DNA of 64,000 nucleotides from Candidatus Marithrix sp. (GTDB lineage: Bacteria; Pseudomonadota; Gammaproteobacteria; Beggiatoales; Beggiatoaceae), in NCBI GenBank assembly GCA_016744775.1, contig JADGDS010000001.1, positions 285,628 through 349,627 on the forward strand, given 5' to 3'. Positions 37,426-64,000 of this stretch are shown here, piece by piece. The notes below the pieces were generated by a model that made no database searches, was not told the origin of the DNA, and saw only the letters and a list, made by a program, of their open reading frames with translations. Position numbers and translations under genes: made by a program. Within the stretch, counting starts at the first letter, position 1. Every line of letters starts with the position of its first letter.

Positions 37426-37788
37426 ATGGAAGTTTTTGTAATTAATCAGCATGGCAAAGCGTTGATGCCGTGTACTCCAAGAAAAGCAAGACTATTGCTT
37501 AAAAGCAGCAAAGCTAAGGTCGTTCGCCGTAATCCATTCACTATCCAGCTTAAGTATGGCTCAACAGGCTATAAGCAGGATTTGACCTTGGGTGTTGATA
37601 CAGGTCATTCGGAAGTAGGGTTATCTGTTGTGTCAGAAACCAAAGAGGTGTTTTCAGCAGTTGCCAAAATGCGTAATGACATCTCTGAAAAAATGGATAC
37701 AAGACGCATGTACAGAAGGCAAAAAAGAAACAGGCTTAGATACCGAAAGCCACGTTTTAATAACCGTTCAGCAAGTACCATAAAATAA
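37426..37788 (+). pseudogene. Truncated iscB copy (N-terminal 120 residues)
   Basis: Matches the first 120 residues of the full IscB with only a few changes (for example Met6 to Ile, Glu11 to Lys, Gly28 to Ser). It stops right after the bridge helix, where DNA identity ends at 37785 and an unrelated AT-rich sequence supplies the stop. It keeps the PLMP region, RuvC-I Asp and bridge helix but lacks RuvC-II, HNH and RuvC-III, so it cannot cleave DNA. It might still bind omega-RNA, which is untested. Confidence 0.88.
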
Positions 37789-39129: not shown

Positions 39130-39145
39130 ATAGGAACAAACAAAA

Positions 39146-40015: not shown

Positions 40016-40018
40016 TGT

Positions 40019-40876
40019 ATGGATAATAAATGTTTGGTGATTGGTGCAACTGGCAGTATTGGTTCACCTTTAGTGCAATCTCTAGTTGAAAAAGGCGAAA
40101 GCATCAAGGCTGCTACACGCAATCCTGATAACTATATAGCCCAAACTAATGTTGAGCCTGTGTACTTTGATTATGATAAGCCAGAAACATTGACATCAGC
40201 TTTAGAAAAGGTAAATAGGGTATTCATGATAACTAAACCGAACGATCATGAACCTGATAGAACGCTTAATCCATTTATAGAAAAAGCACAGTTAGCTGGC
40301 GTTAGGCATATTGTTTTGGTTACAGCCTTGGGTGTTGAACAGGCAGGAGATGAACTTGGCTACCGTAGAGTTGAAAAACATTTAATGGCTTCAGGAATAG
40401 ATTATACTATTTTACGTCCCGGTTGGTTTATGCAGTCCTTCATATCAGGTTTGATTTTATCAACAATAAAACAACACCATAGGATCTATTTGCCTGTCGC
40501 TGATGCTAAAATAAGTTTGATTGATAGTCGCGATATTGCTGCAGTAGGGGCAGTTGCCTTGACTGAAGCTGGGCATAAAGGAAAAGAATACACCTTAACT
40601 GGTGGCACAGCATTAAATTTTGTTGAAATTGCTGAAATTTTATCCCAAGTTACTCAGAGTACCATTGAATATGTTAATGTATCCACGAAAGAATTAAGCA
40701 AAATTATTTCTGAAGTAGGCGGATATCCGGGTCCACTTGAACTGATGGAACGTTTTTTTCAGTCAGTACAAAAAGGTAACTTTGCCTTGATTTCCCCAGC
40801 TGTTTCCGAAGTGTTAGGGCGTGATCCTATAAGTTTTAAACAGTTTGCCAGAGAAAACACAACTTTTTGGAAATAA
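40019..40876 (+). CDS. NmrA-like NAD(P)-binding protein, paralogue 3
   Basis: A 285-residue third copy with the loop IGATGSIG, YTILRPGWFMQ, and YTLTGGTALNFVEIAEIL. It starts 3 nt after paralogue 2. It is the last gene before a 369-nt gap that precedes the NRPS gene. A role in tailoring the polyketide or in detoxifying intermediates is inferred only from location. Confidence 0.87.
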   Translation: MDNKCLVIGATGSIGSPLVQSLVEKGESIKAATRNPDNYIAQTNVEPVYFDYDKPETLTSALEKVNRVFMITKPNDHEPDRTLNPFIEKAQLAGVRHIVLVTALGVEQAGDELGYRRVEKHLMASGIDYTILRPGWFMQSFISGLILSTIKQHHRIYLPVADAKISLIDSRDIAAVGAVALTEAGHKGKEYTLTGGTALNFVEIAEILSQVTQSTIEYVNVSTKELSKIISEVGGYPGPLELMERFFQSVQKGNFALISPAVSEVLGRDPISFKQFARENTTFWK

Positions 40877-41245: not shown

Positions 41246-43900
41246 TTGGCACATTGGCAAAAACACATCAACAATGAATATCAGTTGCTAAATCTACCAA
41301 CAGATTACCCAAGATCGGGGGAACTTTCACCAGATTTAAGTTCCTATAGTTTTACATTAAGTGATCACACAGCATTACAACTAGAAAAATTAGCACATTC
41401 AGAGGGAACAACACTTTATACAATCCTCTTGGCGGCTTTTCAGGTATTACTTTATCGCTACAGTAGTCAGGAACAATTTTTTGTAGGTTCTCCATCACAG
41501 GGACAGTGTATTTCCAATACCACGCTGGATCGCAGTTGGATTATTTTATTAGCAGAACTTTCTAAGCCACAAACTTTTCGGTCATTTTTGACCCAAATGC
41601 AACAACAGGTTGATACTGCCTTTGAATATAAAATAGATTCATTCGGAAAATTAATCGCAAATTCTCCAGAGGAAGCAAATGCTAGCAATACACAGTTCTT
41701 TCAGTCTGTGTTTGCTCTACACAGTTCTAATATTTTGCCTAAAGATGCTTCTAGCATATGGGAAAAAATAAACTATGACTTAAAGGCAAGATTTGATCTG
41801 ATCTTGATAGTTACTAAGGCCAACGGGGAACTACATGTTTCATTGATATACAGTTCAGAGTTATTTGAAGTGGCAACTATTGTCCGTATGGCAGGTCATT
41901 ATCAGACCCTGTTACAAGGAATAGGGGCTAATCCAGAACTGAGCATTTCACAGTTACCATTGCTCACTGAAGCTGAACAACATAAGATGTTAGTGATTTG
42001 GAACAATACCCAAGTTACATACCCTCAAGATAAATGCGTTCATCAGTTATTTGAAGAACAGGTAAACAAAAACCCTGATGCAGTGGCACTGGTTTTTGAT
42101 GAGCAACAAATAAGCTATCGGGAACTCAATGCCCGTGCTAATAAACTAGCACATTATTTGCTAAAATTAGGTCTTGGAACAGAAGAATTGGTTGGGCTAT
42201 GTGTTGAGCGCTCGTTTGAGATGATAATTGGTCTGTTAGGGATTCTAAAAGCTGGTGGAGCCTATGTCCCGATTGATCCTACTTATCCGAAAGAGCGTTT
42301 GACTTTTATCTTACAAGACAGCCATGTTTCGGTTTTGCTGACTCAAGATAAATTTGCTAGCAAATGGAACCAAGGAATCATACCTGATATTTATAACATT
42401 ATAAATAATGTTGTTTGCTTGGACAGCGACTGGGCTACCATATTCCAAGAAAGTGAACAAAATATCGGCTGCCTGACCAAAATTGATCATTTGGCATATG
42501 TAATTTACACATCAGGAACAACAGGTAAACCTAAGGGTGTTTTAATACCTCACAAAGGATTGCTAAATTTAGTTTTCTGGCATCAAAACACCTTTAAAGT
42601 CACCTCAAGTGATCGTGCAACCCAATTGGCAAATATTGCCTTTGATGCCTCAGCTTGGGAAATATGGCCCTATTTAACTGCTGGTGCTAGCCTTTATCTT
42701 GTTAGGCAGGAAATTATGATTTCACCAACATATTTGCGGGACAGCTTGGTTTCAAATGGCATTACAATTAGTTTTTTGCCCACACCACTGGCTGAAACAA
42801 TTTTATCTTTGGAATGGCCCAAAGAATTAGCTTTGCGATATATGTTGACAGGTGGTGATCGACTGCGCGAATTTTTGCCATCATCGCTTCCCTTTCAATT
42901 GGTCAATAACTATGGACCTACTGAGAATAGTGTTGTTACCACTTTTGGATTTATGGGTAGTGATAAATTTAAGCGGCCATCAATTGGTCGTCCAATTGAT
43001 AATAACCTAGTATATATTTTAGATGATCATTTACAACCAGTACCCATTGGGGTTCCGGGTGAGTTATATGTTGGTGGTGCTGGTCTTGCTCGGGAATATT
43101 TAAATAGACCTGATTTAACTAAAGAGAAATTCCTTCCAAATCCATTTGATAAGGGGCTAATTTATCGAACTGGCGATTTGGTTAGCTACAGACCTGACGG
43201 CAACATAGAATTTCTAGGACGTATTGACCATCAGGTAAAAATTCGTGGTTACCGCATTGAATTGGCAGAAATAGAATCATTGCTCTGTCAACATGCCCTT
43301 GTACAGGATGCTGTTGTTTTGGCAAGGGAGGATATCCTGGGTGATAAATATTTAGCAGCTTACGTTGTGCCTGTCAACTTAAGCGTTTTTCAGGAACGTG
43401 ATTTACATAATTATCTATCTAGCCAATTGCCCAATTATATGGTGCCTACAGCATGGGTTATTATGCCTGAATTGCCATTAAATTCTAACGGTAAACTAGA
43501 TCGTCATGCACTTCCAGTGCCCCAAAAAAACCGCTCTACATTGGAAGAAAACTTTATTATGCCTCAAACTGAAGCTGAACAACATATTGCCACAATTTTA
43601 CAGAATGTGCTTCAGTTAAACCAAGTCGGAATTAATGATAATTTTATGGATTTGGGGGCCAATTCTATTATATTAGGCAAAGTACACAGCCAACTGGTCA
43701 AGTACTTTGGGGACAAATTATTATTGATTGATTTGTTTAAGTATCCAACAACCTATCTTTTAGCCCAATATTTAAGCAAGTTTCAGCAAGTAAGCAAACA
43801 GCCTCAAACCAAAATTAGAAAACGCAGCAATCGAACTGCATTAAAACAACAAAAACACCTGCGACGCCAAGCTCGTACATCCAAAAAAACCTTAACATAA
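41246..43900 (+). CDS. NRPS loading/starter protein: partial C - A (Leu) - PCP
   Basis: An 884-residue synthetase. The first about 240 residues are only the second half of a condensation domain (HWQKHINNEYQLLNLPTDYPR, LYTILLAAFQVLLYRYS); the catalytic HHxxxDG part is absent, so this is likely a starter module. The adenylation domain (about 265-765) has YTSGTTGKPKG, FDASAWEIW (about 465), NNYGPTEN (about 553), YRTGDLVSYRPDG and NGKLDRHALP. Reading the specificity positions by eye gives DAWFLGNVVK, the known leucine code. The PCP carries its Ser in DLGANSIILG (about 805). The C-terminal tail is strongly basic. The start is TTG with GGAG 12 nt before it. PKS1 begins 5 nt downstream. Confidence 0.9.
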   Translation: MAHWQKHINNEYQLLNLPTDYPRSGELSPDLSSYSFTLSDHTALQLEKLAHSEGTTLYTILLAAFQVLLYRYSSQEQFFVGSPSQGQCISNTTLDRSWIILLAELSKPQTFRSFLTQMQQQVDTAFEYKIDSFGKLIANSPEEANASNTQFFQSVFALHSSNILPKDASSIWEKINYDLKARFDLILIVTKANGELHVSLIYSSELFEVATIVRMAGHYQTLLQGIGANPELSISQLPLLTEAEQHKMLVIWNNTQVTYPQDKCVHQLFEEQVNKNPDAVALVFDEQQISYRELNARANKLAHYLLKLGLGTEELVGLCVERSFEMIIGLLGILKAGGAYVPIDPTYPKERLTFILQDSHVSVLLTQDKFASKWNQGIIPDIYNIINNVVCLDSDWATIFQESEQNIGCLTKIDHLAYVIYTSGTTGKPKGVLIPHKGLLNLVFWHQNTFKVTSSDRATQLANIAFDASAWEIWPYLTAGASLYLVRQEIMISPTYLRDSLVSNGITISFLPTPLAETILSLEWPKELALRYMLTGGDRLREFLPSSLPFQLVNNYGPTENSVVTTFGFMGSDKFKRPSIGRPIDNNLVYILDDHLQPVPIGVPGELYVGGAGLAREYLNRPDLTKEKFLPNPFDKGLIYRTGDLVSYRPDGNIEFLGRIDHQVKIRGYRIELAEIESLLCQHALVQDAVVLAREDILGDKYLAAYVVPVNLSVFQERDLHNYLSSQLPNYMVPTAWVIMPELPLNSNGKLDRHALPVPQKNRSTLEENFIMPQTEAEQHIATILQNVLQLNQVGINDNFMDLGANSIILGKVHSQLVKYFGDKLLLIDLFKYPTTYLLAQYLSKFQQVSKQPQTKIRKRSNRTALKQQKHLRRQARTSKKTLT

Positions 43901-43905
43901 AGTGT

Positions 43906-46900
43906 ATGAACAAAATGTTAGCTTTAGAAGAAATTCAAGATTCAGATATTGCCATTATTGGAATGGCGTGCAGTTTTCCGGGTGCTAGAGATATAGATAC
44001 ATTTTGGCAAAATATGTGCCAAGGTGTGGAAACGATAAATGTCTTTGCAGATAATGAAATTGCTAAAAGTGACCGTGCTTTTTTGAACCAAACCAATTAT
44101 GTGAAAGCTGGCTCTATTTTGTCTGGTATAGAAAATTTTGATGCTGCTTTTTTTGGTTATAGCCCTAAAGAAGCAGAAACTATGGATCCCCAACACCGCG
44201 TTTTTCTCGAATGTGCATGGGAAGCTTTGGAAAGTGCTGGGTACAATTCAGATAGCTACCAAGGGGCAGTGGGCATTTATGCGGGTTCAGGACCTAATAC
44301 TTACTTTCTTAATAATGTTTTTCCGGGTCGTGAGTTCGCAAACTGTCGTTCATTTTTTGAACCAATGAATGATCTTCATCTGACACTGGGCAATGAAAAG
44401 GATTTTTTGACCACTCGCGTCTCTTACAAACTTAATTTAAAGGGACCAAGTTTCAATGTGCAAACAGCCTGTTCAACATCACTTGTGGCAGTTCATCTCG
44501 CTTGTCAAGCTTTGATGAGTGGTGAATGTGACATTGCTTTGGCTGGTGGTGTTTCAATCCGTGTTCCTCAGCAAGTAGGCTACTTGTATCAAGAAGGCAT
44601 GATTTTCTCACCTGATGGTCACAACCGGACATTTGATGCCAAAGCTCAAGGAACAGTCTTTGGCAATGGAGCTGGTGTTGTGGTGTTGAAATCATTAAAT
44701 GAGGCAATTGCTGATGGTGACAATATCTACGCTGTTATCAAAGGTTCTGCTATAAACAATGATGGTGCTGATAAAATTGGTTATACAGCTCCAAGTGTAG
44801 ATGGGCAAAAAGATGTTATATCAGAAGCATTAGCAGCTGCTGATATTGATGCAGAAACAATTAGTTATATAGAAGCACATGGAACTGGAACTTCTATAGG
44901 AGATCCTATAGAGATTGATGCCTTGACTCAAGTTTTTCGCGAATATACTAGCAAAAAAGGATTCTGTGCTGTAGGAACAGTAAAAACAAATGTTGGACAT
45001 CTAATGATGGCAGCTGGGATATCTGGCTTGATTAAGACTATTTTATCACTTAAGTATAAGCAAATTCCACCTAGTCTGCATTTTAATGAACCCAATCCGC
45101 AGATTGATTTTGCCAACAGTCCATTCTATGTTAATACTCAGTTATCTGAATGGGAAACCAATGGTATTCCACGCAGGGCTGGTGTGAGTTCTTTTGGTAT
45201 GGGAGGTACTAATGCCCATATTGTTTTAGAAGAAGCACCAAAAATACCAGAAGTTGTAAATGATCTAGATCGCGACTTTCATCTACTAACATTATCTGCT
45301 AAAAGTCAGCTTGCTTTACACGCGCTTGCTCAGCGTTATGATGATTACTTGAACGATCATCCAGAGCTATCTTTGGCGAACATATGTTTTACTGCCAATG
45401 TTGGACGCAAGCATTTTAATCATCGTCTCGCTTTGGTTGGGCAATCAGTTCAGCAAATTCGTGAGCAGTTGAATAATGTTGTCAAACAAGATGCCACATT
45501 GGAAAATAATTATCAAAAAACTGGCACCAAACAAATTGCTTTTTTATTTACAGGGCAAGGTTCTCAGTATGAGGATATGGGACTCAGACTTTACGAAACC
45601 CAACCCACTTTCCGCAAAGTTATTGACCAATGTGATGAGATTCTACGCTCTTATTTGGATATACCACTACTTGAAGTTTTATATGTAGGTGATAAATCAT
45701 CTACTGCTAGTGACAATGTGCGATTAAATCAGACTGCCTACACCCAACCTGCGCTTTTCGCACTAGAATATGCGCTGGCTGAGTTGTGGAAATCGTGGGG
45801 GATTGAACCTGATATTGTTATGGGTCATAGCGTAGGGGAATATGTTGCTGCCTGTGTGGCTGGTGTCTTCAATTTGGAAGATGGTTTAAAGTTGATTGCC
45901 GAGCGTGCTCGCCTAATGCAAAGTCTCCCTCAAAATGGTGAAATGGTTGTGGTTATGGCAAACTATGAATTAGTAAAAGATGCCATAGAACCTTATAAAC
46001 AACAAGTTTCAATTGCTGCAATCAATGGCCCAGATAATATTGTTATTTCTGGTGAGCAACAGTGCATTCAGTCTATACTGGCAAATCTTAGAGGATTTAA
46101 AACCAAAAAGTTACCTGTTTCTCACGCCTTCCATTCACCATTGATGGCCACAATGTTGGCAGATTTTGAGCTTCAAGCACAAACAGTTGCTTTTTCGCCA
46201 CCACAAATTAAACTCATTTCAAACGTGACTGGAAAATTGATTGGTGATGAAGTAGCAACATCAACTTACTGGTGTCAGCATGTTTGCAGCTCCGTTAAAT
46301 TTGCAAATAGCATGGTAAGCTTAAACCAGCTAAATATTGATGTGTTGATTGAAATTGGTCCTAATCCAATCTTATTGGGTATGGGCAGACAATGTTTACC
46401 TGAACATGATGGACTATGGTTACCAAGTTTACGTTCAGGGCAAGCCGATTGGCAACAACTTTTAAGTAGTCTTGGCCAACTATACACTGCTGGTGTCAGG
46501 GTTGATTGGGAAGGTTTTAATCAAGATTATACACACCAGCGTGTAGAACTACCAACCTATCCATTTCAAAGACAACGTCACTGGCTTGATGATATCAGTG
46601 AGATTCCATCTCAATACTCTTTAAATAAACAAAATGATAGCAAAAATCATCCCTTACTTGGTCAACAATTATATTTAGCTGGCAGTGATGATTTATACTT
46701 TGAGTCTCGCATCAACCCAAATTGGAAGCATTTAACTTATCTGGCAGATCATAAAGTTGCTGATATAGTGCTAATGCCCTTAACTGCATACTTAGAAATG
46801 GCTTGGGCGGCTGGTATAGCAGTTTTCAATTATGATAATTTTGCAGTGGAAAATGTTTTTGTCCATCAAGCTTTAATTTTACCAGAAGATGAACTCAAAT

Positions 46901-49900
46901 CTCTGCAATTAATTTTGAAAAAAACTGAAAATGCGAGCGTTTATCTTTTTGAAATTTATTGTTCCTTAGTGGATACCTCAGTTGATCCTAGTTGGACTCA
47001 ACTTGTTTCTGGACAATTAACTAACAATTTCTCTGAAATATCATTCCCTAATAATAATCATAAAGAAAAGTTAGCAGAAATTAACTTTGAGGAATTGCAA
47101 GCCCGTTGTACTGAACAAATATCTCCTACAGATTTTTACACTAGCTATTACATGGACTATGGTCCCAGCTTTAAATTAGTCCAGCAATTCTGGAAAAATG
47201 ACAATGAAGTGCTGGCACAACTCGAAGTTCCGTCAGTATTATTAGACAATTATTACCTACATCCAGCCATATTGGATGCTGCTGGTCATATTTTAGGTGA
47301 ACTTTTACCCCGCGATAGTTATCTTCCCATGGTGGTAGAACAATTACGGATTTATAGTCAGCCTAACACAATTTTGTGGAGCTATGGCAAAATTCGACAT
47401 GATCCATCTGGTAATATGGACACTATAGCTGGTGATGTGTGGTTATTTGATGAACAGGGTAATATCATTGCCAGTATGTTAGGAACAACTGTTAAACGAG
47501 CTGATCCTACACTTCTACAAAAGACTGAAAATATCAAAGACTATTTGTATAATGAGAGTTGGCAAATAAAAGCTGCGACAACAATCAACTTGGATAAAAA
47601 TACACAAGGCAAATGGTTAATCTTTGCCGATCAACTTGGTATTGCTACTGAGCTAGCAGCTAGTTTATCACAATCAGGACATTCACCAGTTTTAGTTTAT
47701 CATGGGGAGGTTTATGAGCAGCTAAGTAAAACCCATTATTGTCTGAATCCCGGTGAACCTAGTGATTTCCAACAATTAATTAAAACATTACAATCTGATG
47801 TGCTTTATCAGGGTATAGTTCACTTGTGGAGTTTAGATGAACTATCTAACGATTATGATGTATCAAATTTATTATCCTGTGGAAGTATTTTACATTTAGT
47901 CCAAGCATTATCCCAAACTAATATATCTTCTCATCTATGGTTAGTCACCCAAGGTGCACAACCTGTTGGTGAGCCAACGAAATTACAAATTCAACAAGCA
48001 CCTGTATGGGGACTGAGTCAGGTTATCAACTTAGAGTATCCAGAATTTCATTGTGCATCATTGGATTTAGAAAATAGAACACCAGCCAAAGCAGCAGCTC
48101 AGCACTTAATAACAGAATTATTATCTTCTGATCGTGAAACACGCATCGCCTACCGTCATGGAGTCCGCCATGTAGCACGGTTACAGCCATTTACTGCCAA
48201 TAACGAAATGTTTCAGGTAAGGATGGAGAATTATGGTCTCCTCGAAAATCTTCAATTAAAACCCATGACGCGCTGCCAACCTGGTCCAAATAAAGTAGAA
48301 ATTCAGGTTCGGGCGGCTGGTTTGAACTTTCGGGATATCCTCAATGTTTTAGGAATGCTGAAGACATATTATGCAGAACAGCTAGGAATTCACAATGCCA
48401 GTGATATACCGTTGGGATTTGAGTGTGCCGGAACAATTGTTGCGGTTGGTGCTGAAGTAACAAATTATAAAGTAGGTGACAATGTCATTGCATTGGCTGA
48501 TGGCAGTCTTGCTAGTTTTGTGATTGTGCCAGTGGAAAATATTGCACACAAACCAGAAAAACTAAGTTTTGAAGAAGCTGCCACAATTCCAGTTGCCTTT
48601 TCCACTGCTTATTATGCACTGCACCATCTAGCCAATATCAAAGCCACAGACCGAGTACTAATTCATGCTGCAGCCGGTGGTGTCGGTCAAGCTGCTGTAC
48701 AATTGGCTAAACGTGCTGGTGCTGAGATTTTTGGTACTGCTAGCCAGCCAAAATGGGACTATCTAAAATCAATGGGGGTATCTCATGTAATGAACTCTCG
48801 CACTACTGAGTTTGCTGATAATATTAATAATTTGACAAATGGACTAGGAGTTGATATTGTTGTAAACAGTTTAAGTGGAGAATTCATTGAGAAAAGTTTT
48901 GATATAATAGCTGAAAATGGACGTTTTATTGAGTTGGGAAAAATGGATATATGGGATGATCAACAGGTTCAAGCACATAGTCCCGGTGTTAGTTATTTTC
49001 CCTTTGATTTTAGAGATGAATATTTGGCTGATCCTGATCTGGTGCCTACAATTTGGGATAAATTAGTAATAGCTTTTAATGAAGGGTCATTGAAACCTTT
49101 GCCACATACTATTTTTCCCATTCAGGATGTGGTCGAAGCTTTTCGTTTTATGCAGCAAGCAAAACATGTGGGTAAGATAGTCCTTTCTATGCCTGAGGTG
49201 AATTCAAATAAAACTGAGATACACCAAGATGGGAGCTATTTGATTACTGGTGGTCTTGGAGGCTTAGGGCTTAAAGTTGCAAATTGGTTAATTGACCAAG
49301 GGGCACAACATTTGATATTGACTGGACGACAGGGAACAAATTCAACACAAGCTCAGACTGCTGTTCAAGAAATGAGACAACGTGGTGCCAATGTTTTAGT
49401 AGTTAAGGCTGATGTTTCTAAGCTAGATGATGTGACACATCTATTAGAAAAATGTCCAAACTCCTTGCGCGGCATTTTTCACGCTGCGGGTGTTTTAGAT
49501 GATGGCATACTTGAACAACAATCATTGGCACGATTTGAACAGGTAATGGCACCAAAGGCAGCCGGAGCATGGTATTTGCATAACTTGACCCAGCATTACC
49601 CTCTGGATTTATTTGTTTGTTTCTCTTCTACCACCGCTATATTAGGCTCACCGGGACAAGGAAATTATGCTGCCGCTAACGCCTTTTTAGATGCATTAGT
49701 CCATCATCGTCGTGCTTTGGGTTTGCCGGGGCTTTCGATCAATTGGGGGGGGTGGGCAGAAGTTGGCATGGCTGCTAGATTGAGCGAGCGCGTTCGACAA
49801 CGTTTTATCAGTCAAGGTATGAATTTCATAGCCCCTGAATTAGGTTTACAAATCTTGGGGGAATTAATTAGCAAAAATGCAACTCAGGCAGTTGTCATGT

Positions 49901-50421
49901 CACTAGATTGGTCCAAGTGGCTACGGCAAATTCCAAAAATTACACCATTTTATGATCATTTTGCTCGTGCTGGAATGTCTGAAAAGACAGTTGAGGCTGA
50001 TACTTCACCACAAGATTTCCGGGGAAAAATAGAGGATGCACCACAAAACCAACGTCGTAATATGTTGCTAGCACTTGTTCAGGAACTGGTGAACAAAGTG
50101 TTAGGTAAAGGACCTTCAGGAGAACCATTGGGATTGCAACAAGGCTTTTTTGAATATGGTATGGATTCGCTGACATCTATCGAGTTGCGAAATTATCTCC
50201 AGACAAGTTTTGGTTGTTCTTTATCCTCAACTTTGGTTTTCAACTATTCAACCATTGAAACTTTGGTGGATTATCTAGCTACTGAAGTTTTGGCATTAGA
50301 TGAATCTATATCTGAAGAGACACAACCAGAAGAAAAAGATGATGTTCTAGCAACAGAGGTTAAACAGCTTTCAGAAGAAGAAGCTGAAGCTTTGTTGATT
50401 GATGAATTAGAAAAAATTTAA
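43906..50421 (+). CDS. Type I PKS 1: KS-AT-DH-ER-KR-ACP
   Basis: A 2171-residue, fully reducing module. KS: TACSTSLVAVH (Cys about 188), EAHGTGTSIGDP, KTNVGH. AT: GHSVGEY (Ser about 640) and HAFHSP, the malonyl-type signature. DH: His in LADHKVADIVLMP (about 948; Asp replaces the usual Gly four residues later) and Asp in HPAILDAAGH. ER: GLNFRDILNVLGM and HAAAGGVGQAA (about 1585). KR: ITGGLGGLG (about 1780), active Tyr in GQGNYAAANAF, and LDD in AAGVLDDG, which marks a B-type KR. ACP: GMDSLTSIE (about 2087). It should accept leucyl from the NRPS and add one fully reduced two-carbon unit. It lacks the N-terminal coiled coil seen on PKS2-4. The C-terminus has an acidic docking helix (LSEEEAEALLIDELEKI). 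Confidence 0.95.
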   Translation: MNKMLALEEIQDSDIAIIGMACSFPGARDIDTFWQNMCQGVETINVFADNEIAKSDRAFLNQTNYVKAGSILSGIENFDAAFFGYSPKEAETMDPQHRVFLECAWEALESAGYNSDSYQGAVGIYAGSGPNTYFLNNVFPGREFANCRSFFEPMNDLHLTLGNEKDFLTTRVSYKLNLKGPSFNVQTACSTSLVAVHLACQALMSGECDIALAGGVSIRVPQQVGYLYQEGMIFSPDGHNRTFDAKAQGTVFGNGAGVVVLKSLNEAIADGDNIYAVIKGSAINNDGADKIGYTAPSVDGQKDVISEALAAADIDAETISYIEAHGTGTSIGDPIEIDALTQVFREYTSKKGFCAVGTVKTNVGHLMMAAGISGLIKTILSLKYKQIPPSLHFNEPNPQIDFANSPFYVNTQLSEWETNGIPRRAGVSSFGMGGTNAHIVLEEAPKIPEVVNDLDRDFHLLTLSAKSQLALHALAQRYDDYLNDHPELSLANICFTANVGRKHFNHRLALVGQSVQQIREQLNNVVKQDATLENNYQKTGTKQIAFLFTGQGSQYEDMGLRLYETQPTFRKVIDQCDEILRSYLDIPLLEVLYVGDKSSTASDNVRLNQTAYTQPALFALEYALAELWKSWGIEPDIVMGHSVGEYVAACVAGVFNLEDGLKLIAERARLMQSLPQNGEMVVVMANYELVKDAIEPYKQQVSIAAINGPDNIVISGEQQCIQSILANLRGFKTKKLPVSHAFHSPLMATMLADFELQAQTVAFSPPQIKLISNVTGKLIGDEVATSTYWCQHVCSSVKFANSMVSLNQLNIDVLIEIGPNPILLGMGRQCLPEHDGLWLPSLRSGQADWQQLLSSLGQLYTAGVRVDWEGFNQDYTHQRVELPTYPFQRQRHWLDDISEIPSQYSLNKQNDSKNHPLLGQQLYLAGSDDLYFESRINPNWKHLTYLADHKVADIVLMPLTAYLEMAWAAGIAVFNYDNFAVENVFVHQALILPEDELKSLQLILKKTENASVYLFEIYCSLVDTSVDPSWTQLVSGQLTNNFSEISFPNNNHKEKLAEINFEELQARCTEQISPTDFYTSYYMDYGPSFKLVQQFWKNDNEVLAQLEVPSVLLDNYYLHPAILDAAGHILGELLPRDSYLPMVVEQLRIYSQPNTILWSYGKIRHDPSGNMDTIAGDVWLFDEQGNIIASMLGTTVKRADPTLLQKTENIKDYLYNESWQIKAATTINLDKNTQGKWLIFADQLGIATELAASLSQSGHSPVLVYHGEVYEQLSKTHYCLNPGEPSDFQQLIKTLQSDVLYQGIVHLWSLDELSNDYDVSNLLSCGSILHLVQALSQTNISSHLWLVTQGAQPVGEPTKLQIQQAPVWGLSQVINLEYPEFHCASLDLENRTPAKAAAQHLITELLSSDRETRIAYRHGVRHVARLQPFTANNEMFQVRMENYGLLENLQLKPMTRCQPGPNKVEIQVRAAGLNFRDILNVLGMLKTYYAEQLGIHNASDIPLGFECAGTIVAVGAEVTNYKVGDNVIALADGSLASFVIVPVENIAHKPEKLSFEEAATIPVAFSTAYYALHHLANIKATDRVLIHAAAGGVGQAAVQLAKRAGAEIFGTASQPKWDYLKSMGVSHVMNSRTTEFADNINNLTNGLGVDIVVNSLSGEFIEKSFDIIAENGRFIELGKMDIWDDQQVQAHSPGVSYFPFDFRDEYLADPDLVPTIWDKLVIAFNEGSLKPLPHTIFPIQDVVEAFRFMQQAKHVGKIVLSMPEVNSNKTEIHQDGSYLITGGLGGLGLKVANWLIDQGAQHLILTGRQGTNSTQAQTAVQEMRQRGANVLVVKADVSKLDDVTHLLEKCPNSLRGIFHAAGVLDDGILEQQSLARFEQVMAPKAAGAWYLHNLTQHYPLDLFVCFSSTTAILGSPGQGNYAAANAFLDALVHHRRALGLPGLSINWGGWAEVGMAARLSERVRQRFISQGMNFIAPELGLQILGELISKNATQAVVMSLDWSKWLRQIPKITPFYDHFARAGMSEKTVEADTSPQDFRGKIEDAPQNQRRNMLLALVQELVNKVLGKGPSGEPLGLQQGFFEYGMDSLTSIELRNYLQTSFGCSLSSTLVFNYSTIETLVDYLATEVLALDESISEETQPEEKDDVLATEVKQLSEEEAEALLIDELEKI

Positions 50422-50447
50422 TCTTTTTTTATGATATACAAATAGAC

Positions 50448-53400: not shown

Positions 53401-55298
53401 AAAATAAGGATAATTTCTTGTATGAAATCACTTGGCAACCCAAGCCGCGTCAAGATATACCAATAGCAGCCCTTGAGACAGGGAGTTGGTTGATTTTGGC
53501 AGATCAAACTAAGGTTGGACAAACACTGGCTGAATTACTGATAGAACAAGGACAAACTGTTTTTTTAGTTTATGCAAATGAAGTATATATCAACAATGAT
53601 AGTGTTTGGCAATTAAATCCTGCTAGTCCTACTGATTTTGAACGTTTATTTAAGGAAATTTCTTTAACAAAGCCTTTGCAGGGTATTGTTCACTTGTGGA
53701 GTATAGATGTTGGATTCTCTGAAGATTTTACAACTGCTTCCCTTGATAACACTCAACTTTTGACTTGTGGTAGCAGTTTACACTTGATACAAGCAATTAT
53801 CAAGCAGAGCTTAAAACCCAAACTGTGGTTTGTGACACAAGGGGCAGTATCTATTGGTGACCATCCTGTGTCAGTAGCGCAAGCTTCTTTGTGGGGATTA
53901 GGTAAAGTGATTGCACTGGAATATCCACAATTATGGGGTGGTATGCTGGATTTGCCACTTCCATCAGATCAAACAACCACAGATGATTGGGCAGTAACGA
54001 TACTTACCGAAATATGGGATGCTCAGAGAGAAGATAAGTTAGCTTTCCGAGCTGGGCAGCGCTATGTTGCTCGTATAGGATCTTTTGAAGATGACAGAAA
54101 GAATGATGTTATATTGCCAAGATTGCACTCAGATGCAAGTTATTTAATTACTGGTGGTTTGGGGGATTTGGGTATGCATGTTGCGAGGTGGCTGATCAAG
54201 CAGGGAGTAAAACATTTAATTTTGACAGGACGAGGTGGGGCAACTGGCAAAGAGGGTGTGGTTGATCAATTAACTCAAATGGGTGCTGAAGTTAAGGTTG
54301 TAAAAGCTGATGTTGCAAATGCAGAAGATGTGACAAAGATGATGATCGAAATTGAAACATCAATGCCTCCACTACGCGGTATTGTTCATGCAGCTGGCCT
54401 ACTTGATGATGGTATTTTGCTCCAACAAAGTTGGGAACGCTTTAAAAAAGTTATGGACCCAAAAATTGCAGGGAGTTGGCATTTATATACCCAAACTAAA
54501 ACATCTCCTCTTGATTTTTTTGTCTTATTTTCTTCTGCAACCTCATTGCTTGGTACTGCAGGTCAAGGAAGTTATGCAGCTGCTAATGCATTTATGGATG
54601 CCTTGGCTCAACATGGTAAGGTGCAAGGAAAACCATTCTTAAGTATTTGTTGGGCTGGCTGGGATGCAGGTATGGCAGCACGTTTGGATAAACACCATAT
54701 GCATAGGGGAGCTAATAAAGGTATTAATTTAATTTATCCTAAAGATGGATTGCAAGTATTTGGAAAATTATTGAATTTACTTCCATCAAGTGTAATTGGT
54801 GTATTGCCTATAGATTGGGCTGATTTTGCTGATAACCCATTGGCACAACAACCATTATTTTCAAATTTTATCGAAACTAGTCAAACAGAACAGATTAATA
54901 TTATTTCCCTATTGGAGAAAGCACTTCCATATGAACGTGTAGAAATATTAAAGAATTACTTGAAAACTGCAGTGGCTAAAGCATTAGGAACAGATGAGTT
55001 ACCAGATGCCCAACAAGGCTTTTTTGACATGGGAATGGATTCGCTCATAGCAGTTGAATTAAGTAATAAATTGCAAAAGAATTTAAATATTAATTTTCCC
55101 TCTACTATAATTTTTGAATATCCAAGTGTTAACGCTTTGAATGAATACCTACTGAATGAGGTGCTTTCCTTAACTGAACCAGAAGTTAGCACTGTTTCAT
55201 CACAAAAAAACGATTTATCTGAAAAAAATTTATCCCAATCTGAGTTGGTAAATTTAATTGAACAAGAATTAGCAGAAATTATGGAGATGGATAAATGA
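50448..55298 (+). CDS. Type I PKS 2: KS-AT-KR-ACP
   Basis: A 1616-residue module. An N-terminal coiled coil (ALLALKKLQAKVDALE) precedes KS with TACSASLVAIH (Cys about 206) and EAHGTGTSLGDP. AT has GHSVGEY (about 660) and HAFHSP (malonyl type). KR has ITGGLGDLG (about 1233), active Tyr in GQGSYAAANAF and LDD in AAGLLDDG (B type). ACP has MGMDSLIAVE (about 1527). No DH or ER is present, so the product is a beta-hydroxy thioester. The stop overlaps PKS3 as ATGA. Confidence 0.95.
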   Translation: MNNSEQSKKISPTKQALLALKKLQAKVDALEYARTEPIAIIAMGCRFPGGVNNPEQFWELLRNGIDAITEVPKERWDIDAFYDPDPEASGKMYTRYGGFLDKIDQFDPQFFGIAPREAVMLDPQQRIWLEVCWEALERANIPQKSIIGSNTGIFVGTEHHDYLDQVTHSTNQTDMHTATGNMLSIVSGRLAYFLGTEGPTMTIDTACSASLVAIHLACQNLRAGECELALAGGVNLILSPLMSLLGSRARALSPDGRCKAFAASGDGYGRGEGCGVLVLKRVSDAISDGDNILAVITGSAVTHDGQSSGLTVPNGLSQQRVIRNALENAGIKPNEVQYVEAHGTGTSLGDPIEVEALGTVFGERKEPLVIGSVKTNLAHLEAAAGVAGVIKTVLAIQHGEIPPHLHFDKPSPHIDWDKLSVEIPTTVRSWPTNGNKRTAGVSSFSLNGTNVHAILQQPPSLEVQSSVNIERPLHLLTISAQTEKALVALSQRYEKYFEATLNQPNDIKPTLADICFSTNVGRTHFKHRLSFVASSLVQAHETIAAFNNGEKQGIVFKTPTKVRGIGEQAKVAFLFTGQGSQYVNMGRQLYYTHPTFRQAIEQCDNILRTYLEIPLVEVLYIGDKSPLLNQTVYTQPVLFALEYALVKLWKSWGIEPDVVMGHSVGEYVAACVAGVFSLEDGLKLIAERGKLIQALPQDGEMVVVETNEAEVRNIIRPHAQYVSIAALNGPQNTVISGMRNIVQTVVETFKAAGIKTKKLTVSHAFHSPLMEPMISEFERVACEVSYYSPQIPLVSNLTGEIASVDIASPEYWCRHIRQPVRFADGMHILHNQEYDIFIEIGPKPVLLGMGQQCLPGNTAVWLPSLRQGEDDWQQMLNTLGQLYVHGVAVDWSEFNNGYCYRKVVLPTYPFQRKQYWIKEQISGADELTKTPIVDMLYQGDAKQLTHLIDKTDSLSQEEKKLLPKIMQQLVEQHQQQLSQAKHQEENKDNFLYEITWQPKPRQDIPIAALETGSWLILADQTKVGQTLAELLIEQGQTVFLVYANEVYINNDSVWQLNPASPTDFERLFKEISLTKPLQGIVHLWSIDVGFSEDFTTASLDNTQLLTCGSSLHLIQAIIKQSLKPKLWFVTQGAVSIGDHPVSVAQASLWGLGKVIALEYPQLWGGMLDLPLPSDQTTTDDWAVTILTEIWDAQREDKLAFRAGQRYVARIGSFEDDRKNDVILPRLHSDASYLITGGLGDLGMHVARWLIKQGVKHLILTGRGGATGKEGVVDQLTQMGAEVKVVKADVANAEDVTKMMIEIETSMPPLRGIVHAAGLLDDGILLQQSWERFKKVMDPKIAGSWHLYTQTKTSPLDFFVLFSSATSLLGTAGQGSYAAANAFMDALAQHGKVQGKPFLSICWAGWDAGMAARLDKHHMHRGANKGINLIYPKDGLQVFGKLLNLLPSSVIGVLPIDWADFADNPLAQQPLFSNFIETSQTEQINIISLLEKALPYERVEILKNYLKTAVAKALGTDELPDAQQGFFDMGMDSLIAVELSNKLQKNLNINFPSTIIFEYPSVNALNEYLLNEVLSLTEPEVSTVSSQKNDLSEKNLSQSELVNLIEQELAEIMEMDK

Positions 55299-58200
55299 GC
55301 CAAACCTCTGAAGACTTATCTGCTCTACAACGAGCACTTTTATCGTTAAGGGAAATGCGAGCTAAACTTCAAGCACTTGAAAATGCAAAAAACGATTCAA
55401 TTGCCATTATCGGAATGAGTTGCCGTTTTCCCTCTGATGTTGAGACTCCAGAGGAGTTCTGGGATATGCTGTGTAATGGTATTGATGCTGTTAGAGAAGT
55501 ACCCAAAGAGCGATGGGATATTGATGCTTATTATGATCCACATCCAGAAGTCCCGGGTAAAATGTATACCCGCTATGGATCTTTTTTATCACAAGTTGAT
55601 CAATTTGACCCGCTGTTTTTTGGCATTTCGCCTCGCGAAGCCATTAGTATGGATCCACAACAACGGTTGCTTTTGGAACTTAGTTGGGAAGCTTTAGAAC
55701 GAGCTGGTTATGCGCCAACCAAGCTTCCAATCCAAACTGGTGTTTTCATTGGTATGAGCGAAAACGATTATATGACTCTACCAATGCCAAAGGATACACC
55801 AGTAACTGTTTATGATGGTAGTGGTAATGATCTTTGTTTTGCCTCTGGGCGACTTTCTTATATTTTAGGAATTCAAGGTCCTAACCTAGCATTAGATACA
55901 GCCTGTTCTTCTTCATCAGTGGCTATTCATCTAGCAGTGCAGAGTTTACATAATGATGAATGTGAATTAGCACTTGCAGGTGGAGTCCACCTCAATCTAT
56001 CTCCAGAAACAACTGTTTTATTATCCCAATCTGGAGCACTTTCGCCAGATGGACGTTGTAAAACTTTTGATGCCTCTGCTGATGGTTATGGACGTGGTGA
56101 AGGTGGTGGCATCTTCATCTTAAAACGTCTATCTAAAGCAGTGGCAGATGGTGATAACATTTTAGCTATCATTCGTGGTACAGCTACTAACCATGATGGG
56201 CGTAGTAGTGGTTTAACTGTGCCTAACAAAATAGCTCAAGAATCCTTAATTAGGCAAGCTCTAAAAAATGCACAAGTAGAACCCAATAAGGTTAGTTTTG
56301 TGGAGGCACATGGCACAGGCACATCTCTGGGAGACCCTATTGAAATCAGAGCATTAGATGCTGTGTTTGGTAAAGAACGCATAAATCCTCTGATGGTTGG
56401 TTCTGTCAAGACTAATATTGGTCATTTAGAAGGTGCTTCTGGTGTTGCTAGCCTTATGAAAGTCATATTAGCTTTACAACATGGAGAAATACCAGCCAAT
56501 CTACATTTTAAGCAGCCTAATCCTCATATTAACTGGGATATGTTTTATCTCACTGTGCCTACAAAACGCACATCTTGGTCAGCTGAAAATCAGTTGGCTG
56601 GCATGAGTTCTTTTGGTTTGAGTGGTACTAATGTTCATATGGTTATAGAAGCAGCCCCCAATGTGGACAAGGATAATGTACAATCCCCAGAACGCCCATT
56701 GAATTTATTGACACTATCAGCCAAAACAAAAAAAGCTCTAGTAGATTTGGCAAAACTATATACTGAACACTTGGCGACTAATCCGAGCTTGCCCAATGTC
56801 TGTTTTACAGCTAACACTGGCAGAGCGCACTTTGAACATCGGCTAAGTATTGTAGCAGATTCAAATACAGATCTTATAAATCATCTATCTGCTTTCAGCC
56901 AAGGTGTTGAAACCGCAGTTTCAGTGCCCAGTGACGAGAGACCTAAAATTGCATTTCTATTCACTGGACAAGGCGCACAATATGTGAACATGGGTCGCCA
57001 ACTCTATGAAACTCAACCTAGTTTTCGTAAAACGCTGAATCACTGTAGTGAAATTCTACAAGCTTATCTGGATCAACCTCTGTTTGATGTTTTGTTTCCA
57101 ACAGCACAAAATAATCAATCACTAATAAACCAGACTGCCTATGCTCAACCAGCCTTATTTGCTTTAGAATATGCACTTGCTGAGTTGTGGAAATCTTGGG
57201 GAATTGAACCTTCAATTGTTATGGGACACAGTGTGGGTGAATATCTAGCGGCTTGTGTGGCAGGCGTTTTCAGTCTAGAAGATGGCTTGAAATTGATTGC
57301 AGAACGTGGACGGTTAATGCAGAGCTTGCCACAAGACGGCGAAATGGTGGCAGTACATGCCAACGAGGCACAAGTACGTTCGGCAATTCAAACATATGAT
57401 ACAGTTTCTATAGCGGCCTTAAATGGCCCATTGAATGTGGTTATTTCTGGTGAACGTGAAGCCATACAAAAAATTGTTACCAAGCTAGATGCCGAAGGGT
57501 TCAAAACGAAAAAGCTAGTTGTTTCTCATGCTTTCCATTCTCAACTTATGAGACCAATCTTGGCTGAGTTTGAACAGATTGCCAAACAGGTTAGTTATGC
57601 CTCTCCAAAAATTGGGCTAATTTCAAATTTAACAGGGGAATTAAATAATGCTGATGTTGCTACGGCTGATTACTGGTGTCAGCATGTGCTACAACCTGTC
57701 CGTTTTGCAGATGGAATGGCAACTTTACAGCAAAGGAATGTAGATATTTTTGTGGAAATTGGTCCTCAACCCATTTTGTTAGGGATGGGCAGACAATGTT
57801 TTCCTGATGATAACAGGCTTTGGTTGCCTAGCTTGCGTCAGGTAGATGATGATTGGCAGCAAATGTTGAGCAGTTTGAAAACCTTATACCTTCAAGGGGT
57901 AGATGTAGATTGGTTTGGATTTGACCGTGATTATGCTCGCAGTAGGGTGGTATTACCTACTTATCCCTTTCAACGAGAAAGATACTGGTTACGCCAAACT
58001 CCATCAGCTGATTTATTTGAAGGTAAGCAAGATTGGCTTTATAAAGTTATTTGGCAATATCAAGAGCTTGATATGCCTGCTATTTCTTCAGAAGAAGCTG
58101 GCAGTTGGCTAATTTTTACTGACAAGGATGGAGTGGGTGAACAGTTAGCGAACAAACTTAAAGCACAAGGACAATTCTGTAGTTTGATAGCTAATGATGG

Positions 58201-59857
58201 ATCCAATAGCTTGCAGCATGTGTTGTCAGAACCGCTAGCTTATAAAGGCATTATTTATCTGTGGGCTGTAGATGAATTGCAAAATAGTGAAAAATATGAA
58301 ACTGCACAATTTCATTGTGTTAAGATTTTGCATTTACTTCATGCCATGAACAAGGTTGGAAAAAGTTCTCATTTGTGGCTGGTGACGCGAGGTAGTCAAG
58401 CAGTTGAAGGATATGAGGCTGTCCTTGGAGTGGAACAAGCTCCGTTGTGGGGATTGGCCCAAACTATTATGTTGGAATATCCAGAATTACAATGTGTTTG
58501 TACCGACTTGCCAGCAGTTGCTCATCAAATGGATGAAGCTCAGGTACTGTTCAATCAAATTTTATCTAATGATAATGAAGATCAAGTTGCCTTTCGCCAA
58601 AGTAAGCGGTATGTTGCTAGATTGGTAAGAGAACCTGTCAATAATGTACAAGCAACACAACAAATTATTCAATCAAATAACAGTTACCTTATTACAGGTG
58701 GACTTGGAGGTATTGGGCTTCAGATCGCCCATCATTTGGTCGAACAAGGAGCACAATATTTAACTCTTACTAGTCGAAAAGGTGCAGTTTCTCCTGTGGC
58801 ACAAAAGGCGGTCCGTGAATTGGAACAAATGGGTGCCAAAATACTGGTAATCAAAGCTGATGTCGCTAATCCAGAAGATATGGCAATGGCACTTGTTCAA
58901 ACACGGGCTGTTGCACCTTTGCGTGGAGTTATTCATGCTGCTGGCATTGTAGATGATGGCATTCTGCTCCAGCAATCAGAAAAACGATTTGAGCGAGTAA
59001 TGTTGCCAAAAATTCAGGGTGGATGGAATCTGCATATATTAACGCAAGATGATAAACTAGATTTTTTTGTCTTATTTTCATCTATTGCTTCATTATTTGG
59101 TTCATCTGGTCAAGGCAATTATGCTGCTGCAAATGCTTTTTTGGATGCACTTGCTCACTATAGACATGGTCTTGGTTTGCCCGCTTTGAGCATTAACTGG
59201 GGTCCTTGGGCAAAAGTTGGCATGGCAGCCCGACTTGGAACAAAGGCTGAAATTAATAATGAAGGGATGAATTTCATAAATCCAAAACAAGGTTCTGCTA
59301 TCTTTACTGATTTATTAAATGTACAGCCTACAGTGCAGATAACGGTTATGCCAGTTGATCTGCCAAAGTTTCAAGAACATTTTTCTCAATCTTTATTGTG
59401 TTCACGTTTGGTTCCTCAAAAGTCAACTGATCAGTTAGTCGAGACTTTTGAGAAAAAATTTGTGGAACGTATTGCTACTCTATCAGTTGAAGAAGCGTGG
59501 GAATGTATGATTACCGAAATTGGACAGGTAGTCATAGAAACATTGCGTTTGGGTTCATCCCATAACTTTGATCCTAAACAAAGATTATTTGAACTGGGAA
59601 TGGACTCCTTAATGGCAATTGAGCTGAGAAGTAGACTACAATCCATACTGGGACAACCGCTGTCAGCTACAGTGGTGTTTGATTACCCATCAGTAGATGA
59701 ATTAGCCCGCTATGTGAGTGAGGAAATATTGTGCCTTAAAAACACACAGGTTAGCATGGATAATGACATTTACCTAAAAGAAATTGATGACTTAGAAAAA
59801 TTATCAGAAGATGAATTGGAAGCCCTTCTTATAGAGAAAATTGCTACATTTGATTAA
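55295..59857 (+). CDS. Type I PKS 3: KS-AT-KR-ACP
   Basis: A 1520-residue module with the same order as PKS2. N-terminal coiled coil (ALLSLREMRAKLQALE); KS with TACSSSSVAIH (Cys about 203); AT with GHSVGEY (about 640) and HAFHSQ; KR with ITGGLGGIG (about 1131), Tyr in GQGNYAAANAF and VDD rather than LDD (still B-type position); ACP with LGMDSLMAIE (about 1434). The C-terminal LSEDELEALLIEKI is a docking-type helix. It should add a second beta-hydroxy unit. Translationally coupled to PKS2. Confidence 0.95.
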   Translation: MSQTSEDLSALQRALLSLREMRAKLQALENAKNDSIAIIGMSCRFPSDVETPEEFWDMLCNGIDAVREVPKERWDIDAYYDPHPEVPGKMYTRYGSFLSQVDQFDPLFFGISPREAISMDPQQRLLLELSWEALERAGYAPTKLPIQTGVFIGMSENDYMTLPMPKDTPVTVYDGSGNDLCFASGRLSYILGIQGPNLALDTACSSSSVAIHLAVQSLHNDECELALAGGVHLNLSPETTVLLSQSGALSPDGRCKTFDASADGYGRGEGGGIFILKRLSKAVADGDNILAIIRGTATNHDGRSSGLTVPNKIAQESLIRQALKNAQVEPNKVSFVEAHGTGTSLGDPIEIRALDAVFGKERINPLMVGSVKTNIGHLEGASGVASLMKVILALQHGEIPANLHFKQPNPHINWDMFYLTVPTKRTSWSAENQLAGMSSFGLSGTNVHMVIEAAPNVDKDNVQSPERPLNLLTLSAKTKKALVDLAKLYTEHLATNPSLPNVCFTANTGRAHFEHRLSIVADSNTDLINHLSAFSQGVETAVSVPSDERPKIAFLFTGQGAQYVNMGRQLYETQPSFRKTLNHCSEILQAYLDQPLFDVLFPTAQNNQSLINQTAYAQPALFALEYALAELWKSWGIEPSIVMGHSVGEYLAACVAGVFSLEDGLKLIAERGRLMQSLPQDGEMVAVHANEAQVRSAIQTYDTVSIAALNGPLNVVISGEREAIQKIVTKLDAEGFKTKKLVVSHAFHSQLMRPILAEFEQIAKQVSYASPKIGLISNLTGELNNADVATADYWCQHVLQPVRFADGMATLQQRNVDIFVEIGPQPILLGMGRQCFPDDNRLWLPSLRQVDDDWQQMLSSLKTLYLQGVDVDWFGFDRDYARSRVVLPTYPFQRERYWLRQTPSADLFEGKQDWLYKVIWQYQELDMPAISSEEAGSWLIFTDKDGVGEQLANKLKAQGQFCSLIANDGSNSLQHVLSEPLAYKGIIYLWAVDELQNSEKYETAQFHCVKILHLLHAMNKVGKSSHLWLVTRGSQAVEGYEAVLGVEQAPLWGLAQTIMLEYPELQCVCTDLPAVAHQMDEAQVLFNQILSNDNEDQVAFRQSKRYVARLVREPVNNVQATQQIIQSNNSYLITGGLGGIGLQIAHHLVEQGAQYLTLTSRKGAVSPVAQKAVRELEQMGAKILVIKADVANPEDMAMALVQTRAVAPLRGVIHAAGIVDDGILLQQSEKRFERVMLPKIQGGWNLHILTQDDKLDFFVLFSSIASLFGSSGQGNYAAANAFLDALAHYRHGLGLPALSINWGPWAKVGMAARLGTKAEINNEGMNFINPKQGSAIFTDLLNVQPTVQITVMPVDLPKFQEHFSQSLLCSRLVPQKSTDQLVETFEKKFVERIATLSVEEAWECMITEIGQVVIETLRLGSSHNFDPKQRLFELGMDSLMAIELRSRLQSILGQPLSATVVFDYPSVDELARYVSEEILCLKNTQVSMDNDIYLKEIDDLEKLSEDELEALLIEKIATFD

Positions 59858-59908
59858 CAAAAAATTAAGCTCGTAGTAGGAAATATATTAAAGATAGGAT
59901 ATTTGTTT

Positions 59909-60760
59909 ATGAAACAATTCAAGAATAAAGTTGCTGTGATTACAGGAGCTGCGAGCGGGATTGGGCGTGCAATTGCTGAGCTTTGTGTGCAAGAGGGAAT
60001 GAAAGTGATTCTAGCTGACATTGAAAAAGGTGTATTAGCTGAAACAGAAAAGGCTTTGCAGGCACAAGGGGGAATTGTTATAGCTGTGCAGACGGATGTC
60101 TCAAAAGCAGAGGATATAGAAAAATTGGCACAGAAAACACTTAATGCGTTTGGTGCTGTGCATCTGCTTTTTAACAATGCAGGAGTTGTGCCAAATGGTG
60201 GTAGCACTGTCTGGAAAAGCCAGTATGCAGATTGGGAATGGGTTCTAGGTGTCAATCTCTATGGAGTTATCCATGGGCTACAGACATTTGTTCCTATTAT
60301 GTTAGAACAAGATACTGAGTGTCATATTGTTAATACTGCTTCGATGGCAGGATTAGTATCATATGAGTGTTTGGTGACTTATCATGTAAGTAAACATGCT
60401 ATTGTGGCACTTTCTGAGAATTTATATCATTCGCTTGCACAGCAAAAAGCAAAGGTGAAAGCCTCGGTACTCTGCCCGGGTTGGGTAAAAACTAATTTTT
60501 TAAATGCAGAACGCAATTGCCCTCCAGCACTAAGTGTTCAGAGGAACATGACACCAGTCAGTATTAGAAATATACAAGAGGCACAGAACAGTATGGCTGA
60601 AAATGGCTTATCACCACACAAGATTGCAGATATGGTTTTTGCCGCCATCCGGGAAGAGAAGTTTTATATTATCACCCATCCAGAATTAAAGGATATGGTA
60701 CGACAACGGATGGAGGACATTTTAGAAGAACGCAATCCAACACCAATTGAGCAGCTTTAA
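59909..60760 (+). CDS. Free-standing short-chain dehydrogenase (SDR)
   Basis: A 283-residue classical SDR. Cofactor loop TGAASGIG (about 12-19), LFNNAG, the catalytic Ser in NTASMAG and Tyr-Lys in YHVSK (Tyr about 158), and PGWVKT are visible. The ATG at 59909 follows AGGA by 9 nt and is preferred over the TTG at 59903. Position between PKS3 and PKS4 suggests a tailoring oxidoreductase for the metabolite, for example oxidising a hydroxyl, but the substrate is not known. Confidence 0.9.
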   Translation: MKQFKNKVAVITGAASGIGRAIAELCVQEGMKVILADIEKGVLAETEKALQAQGGIVIAVQTDVSKAEDIEKLAQKTLNAFGAVHLLFNNAGVVPNGGSTVWKSQYADWEWVLGVNLYGVIHGLQTFVPIMLEQDTECHIVNTASMAGLVSYECLVTYHVSKHAIVALSENLYHSLAQQKAKVKASVLCPGWVKTNFLNAERNCPPALSVQRNMTPVSIRNIQEAQNSMAENGLSPHKIADMVFAAIREEKFYIITHPELKDMVRQRMEDILEERNPTPIEQL

Positions 60761-60774
60761 CACAGAGATTATTT

Positions 60775-63700: not shown

Positions 63701-64000
63701 AATTGGCTTTTGGAACTCAGGCTTGTCAGTTAGAAGATATTGTGTTTCCAGAACCTATGGTTATTTCTGAAGATCATACTCGGACTGTGCAATTGGTTTT
63801 TATTCCTGATGAAAGCACCATGCTAGATGACTCTGAAGAGAATAAACTATTTTCCTTTAAGTTGATTAGTTTTACTGATAAAGATAAAAAGGTTCACGCA
63901 ACTGGGCAACTTAGTCTTTTATATGATCAATCTATTCAAAGAAATGTTTCAATTCAAGAATGGCAGGATGCTTGTCAACATGCTATATATGGACAAGAAT
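60775..64000 (+). CDS. Type I PKS 4, partial: KS-AT-DH... (runs off the window)
   Basis: An open frame of at least 1075 codons with no stop before the window end. N-terminal coiled coil (ALLQAYQAIRKLEAKLKAIE); KS with TVCSSSLVAIH (Cys about 204; Val replaces the usual Ala), EAHGTGTPLGDP and KTNIGHLEA; AT with GHSVGEY (about 647) and HAFHSP (malonyl type). A DH domain begins near 940 with LTDHQIYDRVVVP, again with Asp at the usual Gly position. The rest (probably KR and ACP, perhaps ER or a release domain) lies beyond 64000. The start is the ATG at 60775, 14 nt after the SDR. Confidence 0.93.
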   Translation, partial: MSETKDTSKHQALLQAYQAIRKLEAKLKAIEQNKPEPIAIIGMGCRFPGGDNPDNFWQTLQNGVDTTTEHPTERWNIEPYYDPTPGLPGKIYVRRGAYINNVDQFDPNFFGISPHEAENMDPQQRLVLEVTWEALENANIPPDQLQGSRTGAYVGVSNTDYLLLAANKIGFDQYLGLGVDPSLLAGRLSYILGLQGPSMTIATVCSSSLVAIHLGCSALNAKECDIALAGGVHLNLAPQSTMYVSMMQALASDGRCKTFDESADGYGRGEGCGMIVMKRLSTALADGDNIYAVIPGSAVNHDGPSAGLTVPNGPAQEKVLHQALNVAGVSPTAINYIEAHGTGTPLGDPIEVGALNRVMCKGRAQNNPLIIGSVKTNIGHLEAAGGIAGLIKIVLSLQHKEIPPHLHFNQPNKHIDWDELPIVVPTVSRPWSNEERLAGISAFGMSGTNAHIIVGEAPTSEQAPVTIERSRHLFTLSAKTPEALTALAKRYTQHLIAHPSLSLGDVCFTANIGRTHHNYRLSVVAKSSAELSQKLSDFSEGSTNGVLQGNLSSNWNKPKIAFLFTGQGSQYVNMGKELYNTQPTFRNAFDRCNEILRSYLEYSLFDILYQQESNIDNTVYAQPAIFAIEYSLAELWKSWGIEPSIVMGHSVGEYVAACVAGVFSLEDGLKLISARGKLMGALPQDGAMFAIAADEKQVAMAIKPYSNQVSIAAVNGPQNVVISGQSSAIQIIIAKLQHDGIKTTPLSVSHAFHSPLMDPMLENFKQIASMVKYAPPRIKIVSNLTGNLATTEITTSEYWCEHVRQTVKFALGMNTLYQQGIKYFVELGPKPTLLGMAQQCLESVTDNISTFNLLPSLRSNQSDWQTLLTSLGTLYVHGAKVDLSGFDHDYIRHKVTLPTYPFQRQRYWLTHSERGFNTPQLSPLIDQMVRSPLLSEILFEASFSLQLRPFLTDHQIYDRVVVPAAAYISFVLSAVELAFGTQACQLEDIVFPEPMVISEDHTRTVQLVFIPDESTMLDDSEENKLFSFKLISFTDKDKKVHATGQLSLLYDQSIQRNVSIQEWQDACQHAIYGQE

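Follow-up and report, generated by a model that had tools for sequence, protein, structure and literature searches.

The described systems closest to the locus studied here include two kinds. The N-acyl (dehydro)tyrosines comprise the thalassotalic acids, the kyonggic acids, the stieleriacines and the mycobacterial tyrazolones (PMC12479983), and ThiF and nitroreductase genes accompany the genes for N-acyl dehydrotyrosines (PMC12479983). The second kind is the modular cis-AT hybrid NRPS-PKS line of cyanobacterial type, with which the present locus shares its domain types, the layout of one module per protein, a TubC docking domain and TE release. As a machine, the locus is an ordinary cis-AT NRPS-PKS line of a familiar type; it is the product that is likely to be novel. 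We consider it fairly probable that the genes form a complete, colinear NRPS-PKS-NRPS line that would make an acyl-tyrosine with a leucine-derived amino-polyol chain, followed by a flavin oxidase directed at the tyrosine.

The window, that is, the whole stretch of 64,000 nucleotides analysed (G000:C9:285628-349627), lies on a contig that extends beyond it. Reading the contig on placed the end of the line about 8 kb outside the window. Eight genes form one run on the plus strand, from window position 41246 to an extrapolated 71864, with intergenic spacings of -4 to 45 bp. The first encodes the loading protein (41246-43900, TTG start), made of the C-terminal half of a C domain, an A domain specific for leucine by its code and a PCP. 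It is followed by three PKS proteins assigned from Pfam domains and motifs, each with a malonyl-type AT: module 1 (KS-AT-DH-ER-KR-ACP, 43906-50421), module 2 (KS-AT-KR-ACP, 50448-55298) and module 3 (KS-AT-KR-ACP, 55295-59857). A free-standing SDR of the PRK06194 family (59903-60760) precedes module 4 (KS-AT(malonyl)-DH-KR-ACP, 1800 aa), which begins at 60775, crosses the window end at 64000 and stops at L001:11805 (extrapolated 66177; base 1 of L001 is window position 54373). Outside the window, still on the plus strand, lie the terminal NRPS gene, encoding TubC-C-A(Tyr-like)-PCP-TE (1353 aa, L001:11802-15863, extrapolated 66174-70235), and a gene for an FAD oxidase of VAO/PCMH type, predicted to act on 4-alkylphenols (540 aa, L001:15870-17492, extrapolated 70242-71864). 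The module 4 and NRPS genes overlap by 4 bp, and 6 bp separate the NRPS gene from that of the oxidase.

The preliminary description had read the window part as a partial C domain, A and PCP, then the PKS modules, the SDR and a partial KS-AT-DH protein. Pfam reproduced this order, with domain E-values of about 1e-98 to 1e-5 across the window proteins, and the open reading frames were found at the same positions. The further steps that it expected outside the window proved to be the rest of the DH-KR module, the tyrosine-type NRPS with its TE, and the phenol oxidase. NRPS (A, PCP) and PKS (KS, cis-AT, ACP) modules share one gene run, as in hybrid cis-AT lines. In the whole genome, these four are the only modular KS domains; the two remaining KS matches fall in reading frames of FabF size (428 and 409 aa). 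Because the genome holds no other modular KS, we take the line to be complete.

Catalytic motifs are preserved along the line. The Cys/His/His residues are intact in the KS of all four modules (module 2 reads NLAH in place of NIGH and keeps the His). The GHSVGEY and HAFH motifs, found in every one of the four ATs, are of malonyl type, as had been claimed. Each of the four KRs carries the Tyr, the Ser and an LDD-type motif (B-type). Both DH domains retain His and Asp, in a HxxxDxxxxP motif in which D replaces the usual G. The ER of module 1 has its NADPH motif. In module 2 the stretch between AT and KR is 80 aa longer and contains no DH. The C domain of the terminal NRPS reads HHIVCDD, and the GWSLG and GDH motifs of its TE mark it as a release domain. 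Pfam found a methyltransferase domain in no protein of the line, and the earlier statement to this effect holds.

Adenylation codes were extracted on the frame of a PheA fragment, which itself gave the expected code. The A domain of the terminal NRPS (A2) gave DASTIAAVCK, which we take to be a tyrosine code; a literature search for it in this role found no paper. The code favours tyrosine as the A2 substrate and by itself would also accommodate phenylalanine, and tyrosine is preferred because a phenol oxidase adjoins. The A domain of the loading protein (A1) has the code DAWFLGNVVK, which is among the commonest in the Leu/Ile/Val group (PMC12283262) and is that of four predicted leucine domains in the scytocyclamide synthetases (PMC7524897). 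Activation of leucine by A1, and hence the leucine priming proposed in the preliminary description, is supported at the level of the code.

Assuming that the modules act colinearly, a product structure can be predicted. Leucine would be attached to the first PCP as a free aminoacyl thioester, a mode that we infer because the C remnant lacks its catalytic lobe. Module 1 would turn the leucine carboxyl carbon into CH2, giving a 4-amino-6-methylheptanoyl unit, modules 2 and 3 would leave hydroxyls, as their B-type KR motifs suggest, and module 4 would leave an E-alkene. The last module would then add tyrosine to the chain, after which the TE would either free (2E)-10-amino-5,7-dihydroxy-12-methyltridec-2-enoyl-tyrosine or cyclise it. 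The computed masses are 437.2646 for [M+H]+ of the predicted free product (C23H36N2O6) and 419.2540 for the cyclised form. The oxidase would abstract a benzylic hydride from the phenol to give a quinone methide, which could become 2,3-dehydrotyrosine (435.2490) or, with addition of water, beta-hydroxytyrosine (453.2595). Addition of the 7-hydroxyl to C3, forming a tetrahydropyran, is speculation. The leucine start stands, and so do one fully reduced and two beta-hydroxylated extensions, which the module domains and KR motifs support. The overall picture has changed, since the tyrosine-type NRPS, the TE and the phenol oxidase that follow beyond the window would make the leucine unit the start of an acyl-tyrosine. 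Two other products were considered. A dihydroisocoumarin like xenocoumacin or amicoumacin requires that the leucine carbonyl be retained as an oxygen function, and is ruled out by the fully reducing module 1. Legioliulin was weighed and discarded as well.

The loading protein raises the question of activity. Its C domain spans only profile positions 196-456 (Pfam), without the lobe that carries the HHxxxDG motif, and a search for this lost N-lobe in the 11 kb upstream gave chance matches only. In the cyanobacterial genome G413, the matching stretch (51-53% identity) starts roughly at residue 900 of a protein of 1810 aa, so that the half C domain looks like the remnant of an internal module. 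Because of the truncated C domain and the TTG start, the line may be inactive, and expression is the main doubt. The line could thus be eroding: an ancestral leucine module would have lost the catalytic half of its C domain together with its upstream loader, and production would have ceased. The AT-rich gap upstream fits this scenario, as do the missing lobe and the internal position of the G413 counterpart. We nevertheless find it unlikely. All downstream domains have kept their catalytic residues, none of the eight genes contains a stop or a frameshift, GGAG stands 12 nt before the TTG, and a loading module can do without a C domain.

Upstream of the loading gene, three tandem NmrA-like NAD(P)-binding paralogues (38272-40876) directly precede the line and could be pathway reductases or unrelated. 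Further upstream, a type II thioesterase (GHSMG, 34909-35673, plus strand) is a possible proof-reading enzyme of the line; its membership is uncertain because an IscB element and the NmrA-like genes lie in between. The IscB-type elements are in tandem (35659-37788). The first has a HEARO RNA (35659-35883) and a full RRXRR-HNH protein (35933-37117), and the second a HEARO RNA (37147-37374) with the N-terminal RRXRR part only (37420-37788). P-type-ATPase-like proteins with similar N-termini flank the line on both sides (32766-34916 and L002:4572-6494) and are found close to the oxidase in two further genomes (L050:4301-6340 and L051:5406-7448); the Pfam check concerned the window copy only. Directly after the oxidase, on the minus strand, lies a split PEP-utiliser/PPDK_N pair (L001:17504-19966), whose relatives include PEP synthase and ligases of the PigC/RedH kind. 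No more than 12 kb from the line, L002:2727-9271 encodes an ABC transporter above the cyclic peptide exporter cut-off, a decarboxylase resembling diaminobutyrate decarboxylase and an EctB-type diaminobutyrate aminotransferase. At the other end of the window, two nSTAND1 NTPase-WD40 proteins (5277-8861 and 11320-14919) flank a TIR-domain protein (9932-11359), an arrangement suggestive of a role in signalling or defence. A search of the whole assembly, given as about 98% complete, with the model for bacterial 16S rRNA had no match.

The terminal oxidase contains an FAD-binding domain of PCMH type (PF01565). Its homologues include p-cresol methylhydroxylase, eugenol oxidase and vanillyl-alcohol oxidase, and it matches the solved structures 8s7s, 1dii, 5fxd and 1vao, in part over most of their length. 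The Tyr of the KNWGYG motif (GYG column) and a Tyr-Arg pair (YR column) are kept in all 16 aligned homologues; in VAO and PCMH, these positions are the phenolate binders. The residues to which FAD is covalently bound in VAO are apparently not kept, as judged by eye. The oxidase is predicted to act, probably, on the tyrosine of the product.

The association of the oxidase with the terminal NRPS recurs. In two other genomes (L014 and G017:C86), a C-A-PCP-TE protein with a DAST[IV]AAVCK code is likewise followed immediately by the oxidase. The pair is preceded by a fully reducing PKS module in L014, a 'Candidatus Thiosymbion' symbiont, and by a ThiF-nitroreductase fusion in G017, where the pair is a single module and could yield nothing but an N-acyl amino acid. 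This fusion recalls the ThiF and nitroreductase genes that accompany N-acyl dehydrotyrosines (PMC12479983). Of 23 distinct A domains from the compared loci, the three with the DAST[IV]AAVCK code are those next to the oxidase, in a sample that is small and includes many loci chosen as relatives of the terminal NRPS. Our literature searches found no precedent for VAO-type enzymes in NRPS pathways. The FAD oxidase might instead serve a different pathway or the breakdown of phenols, and not act on the product of the line; its close cyanobacterial homologues (63-70%) are indeed mostly not beside NRPS genes. Against this stand the gap of only 6 bp to the NRPS gene, the same adjacency with tyrosine-type codes in two further genomes, and the biosynthetic nature of the remaining neighbours. 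We judge a bystander role improbable and retain the oxidase as the predicted last enzyme of the line.

A strong homologue of the oxidase was found in 27 of 342 genomes of one cyanobacterial order. In about 9 of 20 oxidase neighbourhoods an acyltransferase of one type lies nearby. Four of these were tested and score above the NCBIfam threshold for exosortase-acyltransferases; another exceeds that of Pfam Acetyltransf_5, and FeeM itself gave scores under its threshold. Other neighbours are a Nif11 precursor with a tryptophan-halogenase-type protein (L114), a protein of the halogenase type (L116), and a modular PKS with a type III PKS (L097, with the same layout by similarity in L099-L101). A small protein beside the oxidase in L018 and L017 has a predicted structure with a mean pLDDT of 30. 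In G008 and G060 (L050:688-4304), the homologue lies beside a MoaF-like protein and a protein that resembles amidinotransferases by eye. The factor common to these neighbourhoods, as an association only, would be a phenol or a possible tyrosine substrate. Recurrence of the NRPS pair, together with the cyanobacterial neighbours (acyltransferases of the N-acyl-amino-acid-synthase type, Nif11, type III PKS), suggests an oxidase family for tyrosine and phenol natural products. More tentatively, and as a proposal that we hold open to considerable doubt, this VAO/PCMH branch may be a general tailoring enzyme, acting on acyl-tyrosines from NRPS lines, N-acyl amino acids made by GNAT enzymes, Nif11 RiPP precursors and type III PKS phenols, and here the finisher of a new class of amino-polyol acyl-tyrosines. 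The genomic neighbours of the group all suggest phenolic substrates, which points to a possible tailoring step common to several kinds of pathway.

The best matches of the loading protein reach 49% in 43 genomes of the same family (25 genera, 2-9 Mb, many NRPS matches) and 53% in 334 cyanobacterial genomes. Neither set yielded a close relative of the whole line, and the examined matches have other neighbouring genes. A further comparison of the loading protein with 274 genomes, at a strict threshold and without a positive control, gave no match. The building blocks are common, and the line could be a described pathway or a close variant of one; with no close whole-line relative in these genomes, best matches at these identities in different surroundings and no pathway of this order found in literature searches, we regard this as very unlikely. 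Nothing in the literature or the genomes searched contradicts the earlier remark that no known pathway has this order. The analysis offers a specific predicted structure with exact masses for a bacterial family rich in NRPS genes.

Compared with cyanobacterial-type lines, the loading protein is closest to their leucine modules (53%), whereas here the loading module has half a C domain only, and the order Leu / fully reducing / KR / KR / DH-KR / Tyr-TE was not found elsewhere. The lipo-leucine NRPS-PKS cluster of G413 shares the leucine-type module (51-53%), followed by PKS proteins and then by C-A-PCP-TE; there, however, the leucine module is internal to the 1810-aa protein, the PKS proteins are two, and a different oxidoreductase stands at the end. 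With the 4-phenol oxidases of the VAO/PCMH family, the oxidase of the line has in common its sequence homology, the KNWGYG Tyr and the Tyr-Arg pair, but it falls in a distinct group, mostly located beside biosynthetic genes. Like the N-acyl (dehydro)tyrosines (PMC12479983), the predicted product is an N-acyl-tyrosine, possibly dehydrogenated by an oxidoreductase. In those systems, the chain is attached via an N-acyl amino acid synthase, and ThiF and nitroreductase genes are present; N-acyl amino acid synthase, ThiF and nitroreductase genes (NasY type) were absent from the examined genes beside the line. Here, by contrast, the chain would be built from leucine by the PKS and joined by the NRPS, and the oxidase is of the VAO/PCMH type.
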